In this document: piece after piece, positions 2,429 through 45,961 of the stretch | Layout of the letters: every line of letters starts with the position of its first letter | Numbering within the stretch: the stretch's first letter is position 1 | Source of the DNA: an uncultured Alphaproteobacteria bacterium | GTDB taxonomy: Bacteria > Pseudomonadota > Alphaproteobacteria > SP197 | Length of the DNA: 64,000 nt | Direction of reading: 5' to 3' | NCBI GenBank assembly: GCA_958295695.1 | Contig: OY282363.1 | Coordinates: forward strand, 62,001-126,000 | Program-made: the position numbers and the translations under genes | Notes under the pieces: model-generated | Databases searched by the model: none | What the model was told of the DNA's origin: nothing | The model's input: the letters and a program-made list of their open reading frames with translations, nothing else

Positions 2429-2920
2429 CTACGCGGGCCGCGACGCCTTCTCCACCCCGCGTTCCAGGCGGTGGGCGCCGATCATGCCGGCGACGATCCC
2501 GGCGCAGAAGAAGTAGACGCCGAGATCGGCGGTGACCTCGGCCAGCAGGCCGAGCGACAGCATGGCGACCGCGAGCGCCACGAGGAACACGTCCATCATC
2601 GACCACTTGCCGAGCCTGACCGACCAGGCGAGCGCGCGCCGCGCCGCGCCGTGGCGGGGGTCGCGCGAGGCCCAGACCCAGACGGCCAGGCCGAGCTTGC
2701 CCAGGGGGAAGACGATCGAGAACAGGAGGATCACGATCCCCAGCGGAATGTCCTTGCCGGAGACGAGCGTCCAGACGCCCTCGGCGATCGACTTGCTGCT
2801 CCCGAAGACCCAGAACTTCTCGACCGTGAAGGCCGGCAGCGCCAGGCCCAGCAGCAGGCAGACCAGGGCCGCGGCCAGCAGCAGGCCCGTCAGCGCGTCG
2901 CGATGGAGGGCGGCGGTCAT
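2429..2920 (-). CDS. PqiA-like (paraquat-inducible protein A domain) inner-membrane protein
   Basis: The product is 163 residues if translation starts at the ATG at 2920 (MTAALHRDALTG). The frame stays open further upstream, but that part is Arg/Gly-rich and overlaps the divergent helicase gene, so it was not used. The protein carries a single PqiA domain with about four hydrophobic segments. It shows the family hallmarks TVEKFWVFGSSKS, FSIVFPLGKL and LGKWSMMDVF. PqiA proteins are integral membrane components linked to lipid transport and envelope homeostasis with MCE-domain partners. No MCE gene is adjacent here, and the single-domain form is common as a stand-alone gene in Alphaproteobacteria. 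The function of the orphan form is unknown. Confidence 0.85.
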   Translation of the reverse strand: MTAALHRDALTGLLLAAALVCLLLGLALPAFTVEKFWVFGSSKSIAEGVWTLVSGKDIPLGIVILLFSIVFPLGKLGLAVWVWASRDPRHGAARRALAWSVRLGKWSMMDVFLVALAVAMLSLGLLAEVTADLGVYFFCAGIVAGMIGAHRLERGVEKASRPA

Positions 2921-3156
2921 CGGGAGAGCGTGGCGAAACGGACCGGCGATGGCAACCGCGACCGGAGACGCGCCAGGGGGAGGAAGGCCGCGCCCGACGC
3001 CTTTCCTCCGGCCTTGGACGCCTTGGCCCGCGCATGCCGGCGGTCCAGTTCGTCGAGCGCTTCCTGTCCCCGCGCGGCGCCGCCGCGGGCGGCGGGCGCG
3101 GCCGACCCGCCGCCCGGAGGCTTGCAAACACCGCGCGCCGTGGCGATGCTGGGGCC

Positions 3157-5654
<2,498 letters not shown>

Positions 5655-7904: not shown

Positions 7905-8180
7905 GCCGCGAGGAAAACTCTCGAAGGCCGTGGCGCCATGGACAAAACCGGCGTCGCGTGTATGAAGGAACGGGCCACCGACGAGGTGAAGGCCAAGGTC
8001 GTGTCTTCCACTGACGCCGCGACTCTGCGATCCTTCTTGCGAGGTCATGCGAAGGCGGAGGCCGCGATCCGCACCGGCAAGCACGGAGCCATGGGACGGA
8101 TCGCGGCGGGCCCGTTCGGCAAGCGGCCCCGCTACCGCGACTCCGCCGCCGCCGGCCTGCGTTCGGGAGCGCGGACGTGA
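7905..8180 (+). pseudogene. Decayed ISXO2-like (IS1595 family) transposase fragment
   Basis: The frame around 7905-8180 reads GRGAMDKTGVACMKERAT, then VVSSTDAATLRSF, then a short tail ending PRYRDSAAAGLRSGART. This parallels the catalytic region and C-terminus of ISXO2-like transposases and also the second remnant in this window at 44517-45050 (GAVDKTIVAGVKDRA, STDAETPRSF, LRHRDPIADNG). Only about 85 codons survive. The N-terminal helix-turn-helix, the first catalytic Asp and the NGIES region are all missing. The C-terminus joins after an internal deletion. The stop codon (8178-8180) overlaps the start of the following methyltransferase. No terminal inverted repeats were recognised. Confidence 0.7.
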
Positions 8181-8929
8181 TGCGTATGGAAGCCCGCGCG
8201 CTCCCTCGCGGAGACCGGCCCCCGCGAAGGCGTCGGGTCCGCAACGGCGAGGCGACCAACGACCTGATTCTCAGCGCCTGCGCGGACGGGAACGATCGCC
8301 TTTTCCCACGCGTTCTCGACCTGTACGTGAAGCCCGGAAGCGCGATCGCGGACGTGACTTACGGGAAGGGCGTCTTCTGGCGACGCATTCCGTCGGATCG
8401 ATACGATCTGCGGGCGACCGACATTCGGGACGGGGTAGATTGCCGAGACCTGCCTTACGATGACGGGGAGATAGATTGCGTGGTCTTGGACCCACCCTAC
8501 ATGCACTCGCCGGGCGGGACCGCACACGAAGTTCACACGCCGTTCGAGGACCGCTATCGGAACAACGAAAGCGGCAACCGGACCGGGAGCAAGTACCACG
8601 AGGCCGTTCTGGACTTGTACCGCGAGGCGGGCCGCGAGGCGCATCGCGTCTTACACGACCGCGGTGTGCTGATTGTGAAATGTCAAGATGAGGTGTGCTC
8701 GAATCGCCAGAGGTTCACACATGTCGAAATCATGCGGATGTACGACGAAATGGGCTATGTCGCCGAGGATCTGTTCGTTGCCGTACGAAACAACCGCCCG
8801 GGTGTGAGCCGCGCCGTGCGCCAAGTCCACGCCCGCAAGAACCATTCGTATTTTCTCGTGTTCTGGAAGCGGGGCGAGAGCAGGGGCCAATGGGACATTC
8901 CAGTTCAACCCTGTGCGGCTCGACCGTGA
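8177..8929 (+). CDS. DNA methyltransferase (amino-methyltransferase, DPPY type)
   Basis: The 250-residue product has the AdoMet motif in the form ADVTYGKGVFWR (about residues 58-69) and a catalytic DPPYMHSP motif (about 104-111). Later segments (EAHRVLHDRGVLIVKCQDE, then VARKNHSYFLVFWK-like) match the end of the N6-adenine/N4-cytosine methyltransferase fold. It lacks a visible target-recognition insert, which fits small phage- or mobile-element-type orphan enzymes. No restriction gene is adjacent. Start choice is open among GTG 8177, ATG 8180 and ATG 8186. All overlap or abut the transposase-remnant stop. Base composition is visibly less GC-rich than the flanking carD region, which suggests horizontal origin. 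Confidence 0.8.
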   Translation: MMRMEARALPRGDRPPRRRRVRNGEATNDLILSACADGNDRLFPRVLDLYVKPGSAIADVTYGKGVFWRRIPSDRYDLRATDIRDGVDCRDLPYDDGEIDCVVLDPPYMHSPGGTAHEVHTPFEDRYRNNESGNRTGSKYHEAVLDLYREAGREAHRVLHDRGVLIVKCQDEVCSNRQRFTHVEIMRMYDEMGYVAEDLFVAVRNNRPGVSRAVRQVHARKNHSYFLVFWKRGESRGQWDIPVQPCAARP

Positions 8930-9137
8930 CTACGATTACCTGCTATGCCTCGGTATCTGCCCGCGTGAGATCGTCTTCAACATGTGGCGCAAAGGCGCGG
9001 TCGCCGAGAACCGCGCCGGGCGTCTTGTGCGAATGGCCGAAGGTCGGGCCGTTACCTGCAAGATCGCCAGGAAGCTGGAAGACATGGCGCCCATTGAGAC
9101 GTTGCCCGAGATGCTACGCGTAACCCTGGAATTGTAA
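8913..9137 (+). CDS. Small hypothetical protein overlapping the methyltransferase gene
   Basis: This 74-residue ORF starts at GTG 8913, overlapping the methyltransferase 3' end by 17 bp. It reads MRLDRDYDYLLCLGICP, then an EIVFNMWRKGAVAENRAG segment, and ends TLPEMLRVTLEL. Balanced composition with aromatic and hydrophobic residues suggests a real protein and not a shadow frame. No family is recognised. The overlap implies co-transfer and coupled translation with the methyltransferase. A role as an accessory protein of the methyltransferase or of the mobile block is inference only. Confidence 0.5.
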   Translation: MRLDRDYDYLLCLGICPREIVFNMWRKGAVAENRAGRLVRMAEGRAVTCKIARKLEDMAPIETLPEMLRVTLEL

Positions 9138-9148
9138 GGAACGCTTTC

Positions 9149-9314
9149 ATGCCCGAGAAACCGAAACCACGACCCGTGGCTCAAGCCCGCGGGCCATCGA
9201 CCCAGGAAGGCGGAGAAGGAAGTGGACATGTCCATCGACGTCTCGCCCGATGAGTTTCCCGACGCCGTCACGCGGTCCGTGAACATCGGGATCGCCGGCA
9301 AGCGCGACCGGTGA
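9149..9314 (+). pseudogene. Small frameshifted ORF (54-aa basic protein if repaired)
   Basis: The frame from ATG 9149 begins MPEKPK and soon becomes unlike a protein. The +1 frame continues HDPWLKPAGHRPRKAEKE, then VDMSIDVSPDEFPDAVTRSV and ends KRDR at 9314. Removing a single C near 9167-9168 joins the two into one sensible reading frame of about 54 residues. This suggests a 1-bp insertion in the genome or a sequence error. It sits 11 bp after the previous small ORF. No family is recognised. The rest of the gap to 9367 shows nothing. Confidence 0.45.
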
Positions 9315-9367
9315 AGGATCGGGACTGTCGTATGTAATCGCTCTCGTTCTCGGGGCCCCGACAGGCA

Positions 9368-43240: not shown

Positions 43241-43259
43241 GGATGTCCCGTTGGAGGTT

Positions 43260-43452
43260 ATGTGGGAAAGCGCCGAACCGCCATCGACCTTCCCGCTTCG
43301 GCGAGCGAGGGACAGGGCCGATCTCCACGGGCCGGGCCAGCGCTTTCACCGCTTCCTCGAACGTCGCGCCGACCCGCGCGGCTTCCGGTTCGGCTGGGCC
43401 GGCAGTCCGCGCGCGCCGGCTTCGCGGCGCGATGTTTCGGCTTGTCGGTCAT
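43260..43452 (-). pseudogene. Small frameshifted ORF downstream of the second methyltransferase
   Basis: From ATG 43452 the frame reads MTDKPKHRAAKPARA. The adjacent frame gives PAEPEAARVGATFEEAVKAL and ARPVEIGPVPRSPKREG. Together they look like a small basic protein of the DKPK...TFEEAVKALA kind broken by a frameshift. A comparable broken small ORF (MPEKPKHDPW...) follows the first methyltransferase at 9149. Low confidence. Confidence 0.35.
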
Positions 43453-43614
43453 TTGAACGGACCCCCCGAATTGCCGTTGACGGGTACGGGCTTGCCTGCC
43501 CGCGGCTCGATTCCCGGATGGCGGAACACCGCGCGATTTGCGATACGAAACGGCCTTCCGGATCGCCGAAATCTCCCGACCCGGAGGCAGTTTCACGCGG
43601 CGATCGAACACGGC

Positions 43615-44520
43615 TCACACAGCCAGCTTGGCCAGCACGGGGATCGCGGCGCGGCCCATCTCGTAGTACTCGGCGTTGTGCTCCAGACCGATGCTCCGGA
43701 TTCCGCAAGCCGTCGCGGCGGCGAGAGTCGATCCCGACCCCGCAAACGGATCCAGCACAACGCCTTTGCCCAACGGCAGGCTGGAACGCACCAGGGGCCG
43801 CAGGAACGCTTGAGGTTTCAGCGAAGGATGCGGGGCCGCTTCCCGCTCTCGCTTGCGCGCCGGCGACGCCTCGATCAAATCCTTGAATGGCTCCCGTTCC
43901 GACAAACGCCGCAGGCCGCCGGTCGCCCACTCGCGGAGGTTCTCCCGGACCGTCCCTTCGCAGGGCCGCCGGAAGATGCCCCATGGCTCGAAGCAGGACT
44001 TCGGCATGACCGTGACATTCGGAAACTCGTCATGCGCGTTCTTGGGACGGTCCCCGCCGCGCAGCGTGTGCACGACTCGGACCAGAGTGCCGCGAATCTC
44101 GAACCCCATCGCCGCGAATGAATCGGACACCAGATGGGACAGGAGCGGATTGCTCGCCACGAAGACATGAGCGCCGGGAACGAGGACCGGATAGAGCAGT
44201 TTCGCGAAGCGGGCAAAGAACGTCCGTATCTCGTCTTTCTCGTCATCCTTGAGAACGGTGAATCTTGGAACGGGTTGTCGTTGGCGCCCGTCGAAAGACG
44301 GTGGGATGCGCCAAACGCCACCCCTGCCGCTCTTGCGTTTCTCAAGCTGGTCGGGAGTGTATTCCACCAAACCGTAGGGTGGGTCCGTCACGACCGCATG
44401 GATGGATCGCTCTTCGGCGGCGCTCAACCACGAGAAAGCGTCCTTGTGAAGGAACTCATGGAGCGTGGCCTCGAGACCCAACTTCGGTTCCAGGGCGGGA
44501 CCGAGCGCGGCGTCGCTCAT
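43615..44520 (-). CDS. Site-specific DNA methyltransferase (beta-class N6-adenine/N4-cytosine)
   Basis: The 301-residue enzyme has catalytic motif IV TDPPYGLVEY near residue 45 and, near the C-terminus, LKPQAFLRPLVRSSLPLGKG followed by AdoMet motif I VLDPFAGSGSTLAAA near 270. This is the order of the beta class. LVPGAHVFVASNPLLSHLV represents the region after the catalytic motif. No restriction gene is adjacent, so it appears to be an orphan. The ATG overlaps the stop of the transposase remnant (ATGA). Base composition is lower in GC than parB and the PBP gene. The C-terminus (RSIGLEHNAEYYEMGRAAI) is typical. Confidence 0.88.
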   Translation of the reverse strand: MSDAALGPALEPKLGLEATLHEFLHKDAFSWLSAAEERSIHAVVTDPPYGLVEYTPDQLEKRKSGRGGVWRIPPSFDGRQRQPVPRFTVLKDDEKDEIRTFFARFAKLLYPVLVPGAHVFVASNPLLSHLVSDSFAAMGFEIRGTLVRVVHTLRGGDRPKNAHDEFPNVTVMPKSCFEPWGIFRRPCEGTVRENLREWATGGLRRLSEREPFKDLIEASPARKREREAAPHPSLKPQAFLRPLVRSSLPLGKGVVLDPFAGSGSTLAAATACGIRSIGLEHNAEYYEMGRAAIPVLAKLAV

Positions 44521-45050
44521 GCCCGCGCTCCCAAGTCCGGCCCGTTGTCGGCGATCGGGTCGCGGTGGCGGAGCCTCTTGCCGACCGTCCGGCGGACGAT
44601 CCCGGCCATCCGGTCGGGCATGTCGACGCCGCGCCGGGTCGAGAACTCCATGACGCGGCGATCGAGATGCCTGGCCGACAGCTTGTGGACGGTCCCCTTA
44701 TGCGCCCTCTCGGGCATGTTCCAGAAGCTCTCGATCCCTTGGGTGCTCGCCATGCCCCGGACATACCCGCCGACGCCATGGCGGACCGTTTCGCGCGTGA
44801 AGTCGCGGGCCGGCCCCCGATAGCCGCCGTGCTCGTCCGTACGGACCGCGGCGCCGGCCTCCACGTTTCCCCGGACGAAGGATCGCGGAGTTTCGGCGTC
44901 GGTGGAAGGAACGACTCCGGCGCGGATTTCGTTGGCGGCGCGGTCCTTTACGCCCGCGACGATCGTTTTGTCCACGGCGCCGCGCCGGTCGATGTCCAGG
45001 TCCCGACACAGCTTCATGCTCGACACGGATTTCAGGCCGGTCGGCGGCGG
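44517..45050 (-). pseudogene. Decayed ISXO2-like (IS1595 family) transposase
   Basis: The frame reads GLKSVSSMKLCRDLDI, then jumps to DRRGAVDKTIVAGVKDRAA, STDAETPRSFVRGN, VRTDEHGGYRG, GMASTQGIESFWNM and HKLSARHLDRRVMEFSTRR, and ends RLRHRDPIADNGPDLGARA. The order and motifs match ISXO2-like transposases. These have a helix-turn-helix, a DDE-like core with NGIES, and the PxHLDR helix. Between CRDLDI and DRRGAV the region containing the first catalytic Asp is missing, so it is inactive. The stop overlaps the methyltransferase start. No inverted terminal repeats were identified. Confidence 0.75.
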
Positions 45051-45079
45051 ACAGGCGTATCGAAGGGGCGCGCGCGCTT

Positions 45080-45961
45080 TCAGACGCGGGGCGGGGGACG
45101 TTCCAGGCGGGCGATGGCGTCGTCGAGCTGTTCTGGGGCGGAGTAGTGCAGGATCAGGCGGCCCCCCTCGCCCTTCCGCGCGATCTCGACCTTCAGGCCG
45201 GTGGCCTCCGCGAGCCGCGTCCGCAGCGCCCGGAGGTCGGCGTCCTCGCCGTCGTCCCGCCGCGTCCGCCGGCGTTCCCGCCCCGGCTCGCCGGCGGGCG
45301 CCCGCGCCCGCGCCTCGGTCTCGCGCACCGACAGGCCGAGCCGGACGACCGTCTCGGCGAGCCCTCCCGGATCGGCGGCGGCGAGCAACGCGCGGCCGTG
45401 GCCGGCCGAGAGCTTGCCGCGCTCGAGCAGGACGCGGACCGACGCCGGGAGCTGGAGCAGGCGGACGGTGTTGGCGACATGGGCCCGGCTCCGGCCGACG
45501 ACGCCGGCGACGTCGGTCCGGTTCAGGCCGAACTCCTCGCGCAGCCGCTCGTAGCCGGCCGCCTCCTCGAGGGGGCCGAGGTCCGCGCGCTGAAGGTTCT
45601 CGACCAGCCCCGTCTCCAGGACCTCGCGGTCGGACATCTCGCGCACGATGACCGGGACCTCGTGGATCCGCGCCATCTGGGCCGCGCGCCAGCGCCGCTC
45701 GCCGGCGACGATCTCGAGCATGGCGCCGTCCTCCGGCGCGGGCCGCGCCACGATCGGCTGCATCATGCCGCTGCGCCGCAGGCTCTCGGCGAGGAGGAGG
45801 AGCTCGTCCTCGTCGAACCGGACGCGGGGCTGGAGGCGTCCGGGCCGGAGCGCGGCGACCGGGACCCGGCGCAGGTCGCCGCCGTCGCCGTCCCACGCCG
45901 GGGGGATGGCCTCGGCGAGCAGGGCCGCGAGGCCCCGGCCCAGGACCCGCTCCCCGCTCAC
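45080..45961 (-). CDS. parB: Chromosome-partitioning protein ParB
   Basis: The 293-residue protein is the parS-binding CTPase. N-terminal features include VLGRGLAALLAE. Box I (VPVAALRPGRLQPR) and box II (IVAGERRWRAAQMARIHEV, the CTP-binding GERRxRA) are followed by ETGLVENLQRADLGPLEEAA and the helix-turn-helix GLNRTDVAGVVGRSRAHVAN. The C-terminal dimerisation domain ends the protein. GTG 45961 overlaps the parA stop by 4 bp. It sits close to six parS sites (49.3-54.0 kb). In relatives holA usually lies downstream. Here a transposase remnant and a methyltransferase follow instead. Confidence 0.96.
   Translation of the reverse strand: MSGERVLGRGLAALLAEAIPPAWDGDGGDLRRVPVAALRPGRLQPRVRFDEDELLLLAESLRRSGMMQPIVARPAPEDGAMLEIVAGERRWRAAQMARIHEVPVIVREMSDREVLETGLVENLQRADLGPLEEAAGYERLREEFGLNRTDVAGVVGRSRAHVANTVRLLQLPASVRVLLERGKLSAGHGRALLAAADPGGLAETVVRLGLSVRETEARARAPAGEPGRERRRTRRDDGEDADLRALRTRLAEATGLKVEIARKGEGGRLILHYSAPEQLDDAIARLERPPPRV

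Follow-up and report, generated by a model that had tools for sequence, protein, structure and literature searches.

Insertion sequences of the IS1595 family that carry passenger genes, known as transporter IS (tIS), include tISCpe8 and MTnSag1/tISSag10 (Siguier, Gagnevin & Chandler 2009, via passages of PMC5704250 and PMC11891212). They combine an IS1595-type DDE transposase with terminal inverted repeats (TIRs) of ~25 bp, a target duplication and passengers inside the TIRs, as do the intact relatives described here. The known passengers in those passages are resistance genes or regulators, whereas here they are methyltransferase (MT) and restriction-modification (RM) genes, and relative to the systems covered there the present elements add an ATGA or GTGA overlap at the transposase end and, close to the right TIR, a small protein that is conserved. 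Methyltransferase passengers are named for tIS in PMC11891212, which cites IS220 of the IS1380 family; these are alike in having a methyltransferase as an IS passenger gene but belong to another transposase family, and recurrent RM pairs are not described in the parts concerned. Type II RM systems that leave orphan MT relics are comparable as MT and nuclease pairs in which the nuclease is lost first, with the difference that the pair here lies within a defined IS1595-type transposable unit. The literature searched, mostly non-subscription papers, yielded no description of RM genes as recurrent, exchangeable, start-stop-coupled IS1595 cargo.

The stretch of DNA analysed here (64 kb, hereafter the window) contains two modules of the same layout on opposite strands, as the original prediction had it: module 1 at 7938-9342 on the plus strand and module 2 at 43253-45080 on the minus strand. 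Both are very probably dead copies of an IS1595-family tIS that would have consisted of a left TIR, a transposase, a translationally coupled MT or RM cargo, a small protein and a right TIR, with the nuclease since lost and the MT frame left open. The features are as follows.

7938-8180, plus strand: transposase remnant with a GTGA overlap to the MT at 8177-8180 (PF12762, E=0.0026)
8177-8929, plus strand: DNA methyltransferase, intact, motif I before DPPY (PF01555, E=9e-9)
8874-9137, plus strand: C-terminal half of a type II restriction enzyme (phmmer E=9e-34 to residues 83-166 of the enzyme in element L082)
9150-9315, plus strand: small terminal protein, frameshifted, MPEKPK... / HRPRKAEKEVDMSIDVSPDEFPDAVTRSVNI (jackhmmer family member; 0/1000 shuffles as high)
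9317-9342, minus strand: degraded right TIR AGCGATTACATACGACAGTCCCGATC (best TIR-matrix match on the minus strand of the window)
43253-43278, plus strand: degraded right TIR GGAGGTTATGTGGGAAAGCGCCGAAC, compare GGGGATTATGTAGGAAAGTGCCGA in L047 (best TIR-matrix match on the plus strand of the window)
43296-43456, minus strand: conserved small terminal protein, frameshifted remnant, MTDKPK... / ...GATFEEAVKALARPVEIG (family-consensus alignment)
43543-43608, minus strand: stub like the N-terminus of the PD-(D/E)XK-like protein that follows the MT homologues in L176-L179, with the PD..ExK core absent (FDRRVKLPPGREISAIRKAVSY compared with FDPSVPLPPGLDIASIRRAIDY)
43615-44520, minus strand: N6/N4 DNA methyltransferase, intact, 301 aa, TDPPYG before DPFAGSGST (PF01555 N6_N4_Mtase, E=1e-18)
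44517-44520, minus strand: ATGA overlap of 4 nt between transposase TGA and methyltransferase ATG (direct reading of the complement)
44517-45080, minus strand: 3' half of a decayed IS1595/ISXO2-type transposase (PF12762 DDE_Tnp_IS1595, E=4e-21)

The transposase remnant of module 2 reaches 76 bits against PF12762 (cut-off 27), is 49-53% identical to intact relatives and abuts the parB stop; over 50 aa it shares 58% identity with the remnant in module 1. Alignment with the intact relatives reveals internal deletions, loss of the N-terminus and 5' end together with the left TIR, and a missing block with VEVDET.., which in the relatives holds the first DDE aspartate. Without its N-terminus and first catalytic aspartate, this predicted protein is a dead remnant of an IS1595 (ISXO2-like) family member and not an active one. 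A transposase stop overlapping the MT start codon on the parB side had been predicted, and the overlap was read directly as ATGA. The predicted transposase remnant is likewise of IS1595 type, with the corrections that it is a 3' part carrying internal deletions and that the module extends beyond the limits first given to it, as far as the degraded right TIR. Neither this transposase nor this MT lies within 1.5 kb of parB in any of the 14 further family genomes that have a parB match, which makes the insertion lineage-specific within the set compared.

The two MTs were predicted to be of different classes, and their motif order is indeed opposite. That of module 2, with catalytic motifs of the DPPY and FxGxG types, matches PADLOC MTase_II (PDLC03215, E=3e-111) and has homologues of 60-68% identity in five genomes. 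In four genomes (L176-L179) the gene after the MT homologue encodes a PD-(D/E)XK-like protein with an invariant P-D...E-x-K, and in L179 a decayed IS1595 transposase, itself behind a TIR-like left end, is joined to the MT homologue by an ATGA overlap, with the nuclease-like ORF then following. The stub of module 2 lies at the expected place behind the MT and is short (22-24 residues), the remainder of the nuclease-like protein being gone; 2/1000 codon shuffles score equally high, and we regard it with moderate confidence as a putative nuclease remnant. Pfam holds no match for the candidate nuclease of either module or for the small terminal protein, PADLOC likewise has none for the module 2 nuclease-like protein, and the fold prediction for an intact homologue of the latter gave a pLDDT of 42 and no usable model. 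In L177 and L178, where no IS1595 remnant was detected, the module 2-type pair of MT and nuclease-like genes precedes a NUDIX gene, so RM pairs of this kind occur independently of the element as well. A plasmid collection contained homologues of the module 2 MT at 53-61% identity, the two inspected adjoining other genes with no IS1595 seen, and no homologue of the nuclease-like protein; a scan of viral contigs with the same MT found no relative.

For module 1, the guide is the intact element L082, which has TIRs, an 8-bp target duplication, a GTGA overlap, and an MT with a type II restriction enzyme (PADLOC REase_II, E=1e-13). The module 1 MT is 74% identical to its counterpart there. The half of the predicted module 1 nuclease that would carry the D..ExK core has been deleted and the rest is fused into the 3' end of the MT, with the junction within the last MT codons; the deletion is evident from comparison with L082.

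The original prediction described both MTs as trailed by a small basic ORF, a frameshifted one beginning MTDKPK in module 2. The MTDKPK ORF is present at 43456, and its frameshifted continuation, 'ARVGATFEEAVKALARPVEIG', belongs by homology to a conserved small-protein family (0/1000 codon shuffles as high), although the region between it and the MT opens with the restriction-enzyme-like stub. In module 1 the description holds for the ORF at 9150-9315, while the one before it, at 8913-9137, is the C-terminal restriction-enzyme half. The small trailing ORFs come from two sources, namely restriction-enzyme remnants (8874-9137 and the putative stub at 43543-43608) and a conserved protein of ~60 aa. 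This small-protein family (YQPSKAELEE..TPEELARAVLRPV) is found near the right end, often 40-100 nt inside it, in many elements with different cargo.

The best TIR-matrix match on each strand of the window lies at a module end, in the expected place and orientation right behind the small-protein remnant; the scores fall within the range of shuffled windows and are not significant alone, so that the assignment rests on position. These degraded right TIRs are the only ends left, and as the left TIRs and target duplications of both copies are gone, transposition of the window copies is not directly demonstrable. Passengers between TIRs are seen in relatives, including L082, and in the window the same position follows from homology and gene order only.

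Elsewhere in the same genome, a third module (L185) consists of a transposase, a GTGA overlap, an MT and a further ORF. At least 8 N6_N4 methyltransferase genes in this genome score far above the family cut-off, and only some adjoin IS1595 remnants. At ~470-1129 of L006 (C1:3294500-3301000), the apparently decayed end of a cytosine methyltransferase and an HNH nuclease are followed by an intact small YQPSKAE protein, and this locus is probably one more remnant of such an element. In L007 (C1:3262500-3267500), a CRISPR array at ~2660-3610 (repeat CTCCTAACCCCTCATGGGGAGCGATGAC, at least 15 units) adjoins a helicase-like reading frame and what is left of a decayed IS1595-type transposase.

Of 289 genomes searched at class level with the transposase, 34 contained relatives; another 80 loci came from scanning 84,980 species genomes. 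TIRs and target duplications were sought around each transposase, and removal of near-duplicates left 72 elements with recognizable ends (GGGRATTATATAC...). Almost all of them are flanked by exact 8-bp target duplications, and the passengers sit downstream of the transposase, within the ends. Tabulating the genes behind the transposase 3' ends, as had been suggested, placed an MT inside the ends of 35 of these 72 elements, in several unrelated MT classes. MT genes numbered 28 in 105 kb of passenger DNA and 6 in 453 kb of flank from the same contigs (p=2e-15), a contrast that may be inflated in favor of passengers because the MT profiles were built from passenger MTs. Independently, Pfam assigned 21 of 22 sampled cargo MTs to N6_N4_Mtase, with C5, N6_Mtase, MT-A70 and D12 classes in others. 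Putative DNA methyltransferases are the commonest recognizable cargo of this IS1595 lineage, often accompanied by a predicted restriction enzyme.

Going beyond the original prediction, the predicted cargo is often an RM pair, complete and of type II in several elements. Inside the TIRs lie an MT with a BglII-type nuclease (L104, L141), a C5-MT with an NgoFVII-type (L123) or GIY-YIG (L043) nuclease, and an MT with HNH (L040) or fused to it (L085); an XcyI-type nuclease accompanies an MT match in L056, and N6_Mtase proteins are the cargo of L048, L066, L081 and L119, with an HSDR_N domain in L066. About half of the elements have no recognized MT, and other cargo includes an EamA transporter, proteases, a regulator and proteins of no recognized kind, so the cargo is not exclusively MT. 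A family of 133-147 aa proteins, with no Pfam family, begins at the transposase stop (ATGA) in L041 (2580-3005), L044 (3560-3985, minus strand), L047 (2577-2978) and L055 (2553-2996), with the MT following it in L041 and L044. The transposase and its RM cargo would be moved by the element as one unit, and we infer RM activity of the cargo.

ATGA or GTGA overlaps occur at 16 of 31 co-directional MT loci compared with 1 of 17 convergent ones, and transposases end in TGA at 18 of 31 compared with 1 of 17 (Fisher p=0.0005, approximate since the loci are related). The transposase 3' end reads ..SGAR(S/T) TGA; no ribosome-binding role is claimed for the conserved SGARS codons, as convergent elements conserve this tail too. 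Random deletion as the origin of the overlaps is rejected, since the same overlaps occur in intact elements flanked by exact target duplications (L082 GTGA, L141 ATGA), and the architecture in the window is inherited from intact elements. The transposase 3' end would supply the start codon of the cargo (ATGA or GTGA), and since the stop of the one gene contains the start of the other, ribosomes probably re-initiate there to translate the cargo, so that the two genes would be translationally coupled in vivo.

The proposal that the modules represent a recurrent cargo type and not one copied element agrees with the unrelated MT classes and with the transposases of L082, L086 and L091, which are 76-85% identical while their MTs have no significant or only marginal similarity. 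Such pairings point to cargo exchange at the transposase/cargo junction, where cargo may have been swapped between closely related transposases. On the transposase tree the cargo state changes 27 times compared with 36.8 in shuffles and is therefore clustered yet often changing; the position of the window transposase in this tree is unreliable owing to a long branch.

The truncation of the window transposases by deletion and the occurrence of module 2-type MT genes without an IS (L177, L178) would also suit a chance juxtaposition, in which a resident MT gene was struck twice by abutting IS1595 insertions or deletions that created the overlaps. We consider this highly improbable, given that the same overlap lies within TIRs and exact 8-bp duplications in L082 and L141, that three modules in one genome all have ATGA or GTGA, and that MTs recur in nearly half of the bounded elements. 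Methylation controls some other IS elements, and several elements here have an MT with no recognized nuclease, as would be expected if the MT served the transposon itself, methylating element DNA for control of transposition or protection of an intermediate, and were not RM cargo. This reading is unlikely in view of the many unrelated MT classes swapped between close transposases, the restriction-enzyme genes that often adjoin the MTs and the elements that lack a recognized MT.

A more serious, though still doubtful, alternative concerns the present state of the two MTs, which may have been domesticated as functional orphan methylases selected for a host role. Their frames and catalytic motifs have been kept while the transposase, nuclease and small ORF decayed, and both differ from their homologues mainly at third codon positions. 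That pattern, however, mostly reflects time spent within functional elements, and the decay may be recent; the GC content of the MTs (0.62-0.64, compared with ~0.77 in neighboring genes) together with the third-position differences fits recent acquisition of the coding sequence. For the favored reading of both modules as dead tIS copies, decay after insertion would have cut the transposase, removed the left end and deleted the nuclease core with the MT frame left open, in keeping with the two modules, in each of which the transposase is broken, the nuclease core gone and the MT open. A functional cognate restriction enzyme is deleted in both, with a candidate beside the homologous MTs in L082 and L176-L179. 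Loss of the nuclease first should be survivable and loss of the MT first should not, so open MTs with broken nucleases would be the expected relics, and both window MTs are probably now orphan or residual methylases.

Finally, there is about an even chance that this IS1595 lineage is a general vehicle for RM genes across phyla, chiefly in the microbiomes of sponges, with the stop/start junction as a translational port for exchangeable MT or RM cassettes and the terminal small protein required for the element's movement or for control of its cargo. Transposases of Acidobacteriota and Pseudomonadota are up to 75% identical, and on plasmids more distant IS1595 elements (38%) have other neighbors. 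Many loci appear to come from sponge-microbiome genomes: their records bear names like Spongia_Bin9 or belong to the RHO/COS/IRC/CAR/APA series, and these names agree with the sponges studied in PMC8163846. An enrichment of RM genes in the genomes of sponge symbionts has been reported (PMC5649159, PMC8163846), and evidence for lateral transfer between the symbionts is lacking according to PMC8163846. RM systems are widespread and their vehicle is often not known; small transposable units with exact duplications and RM genes in several phyla are a concrete candidate. The overlap of transposase stop and cargo start suggests immediate expression of new cargo, and the half-deleted nucleases point to a route by which orphan methyltransferases can arise.
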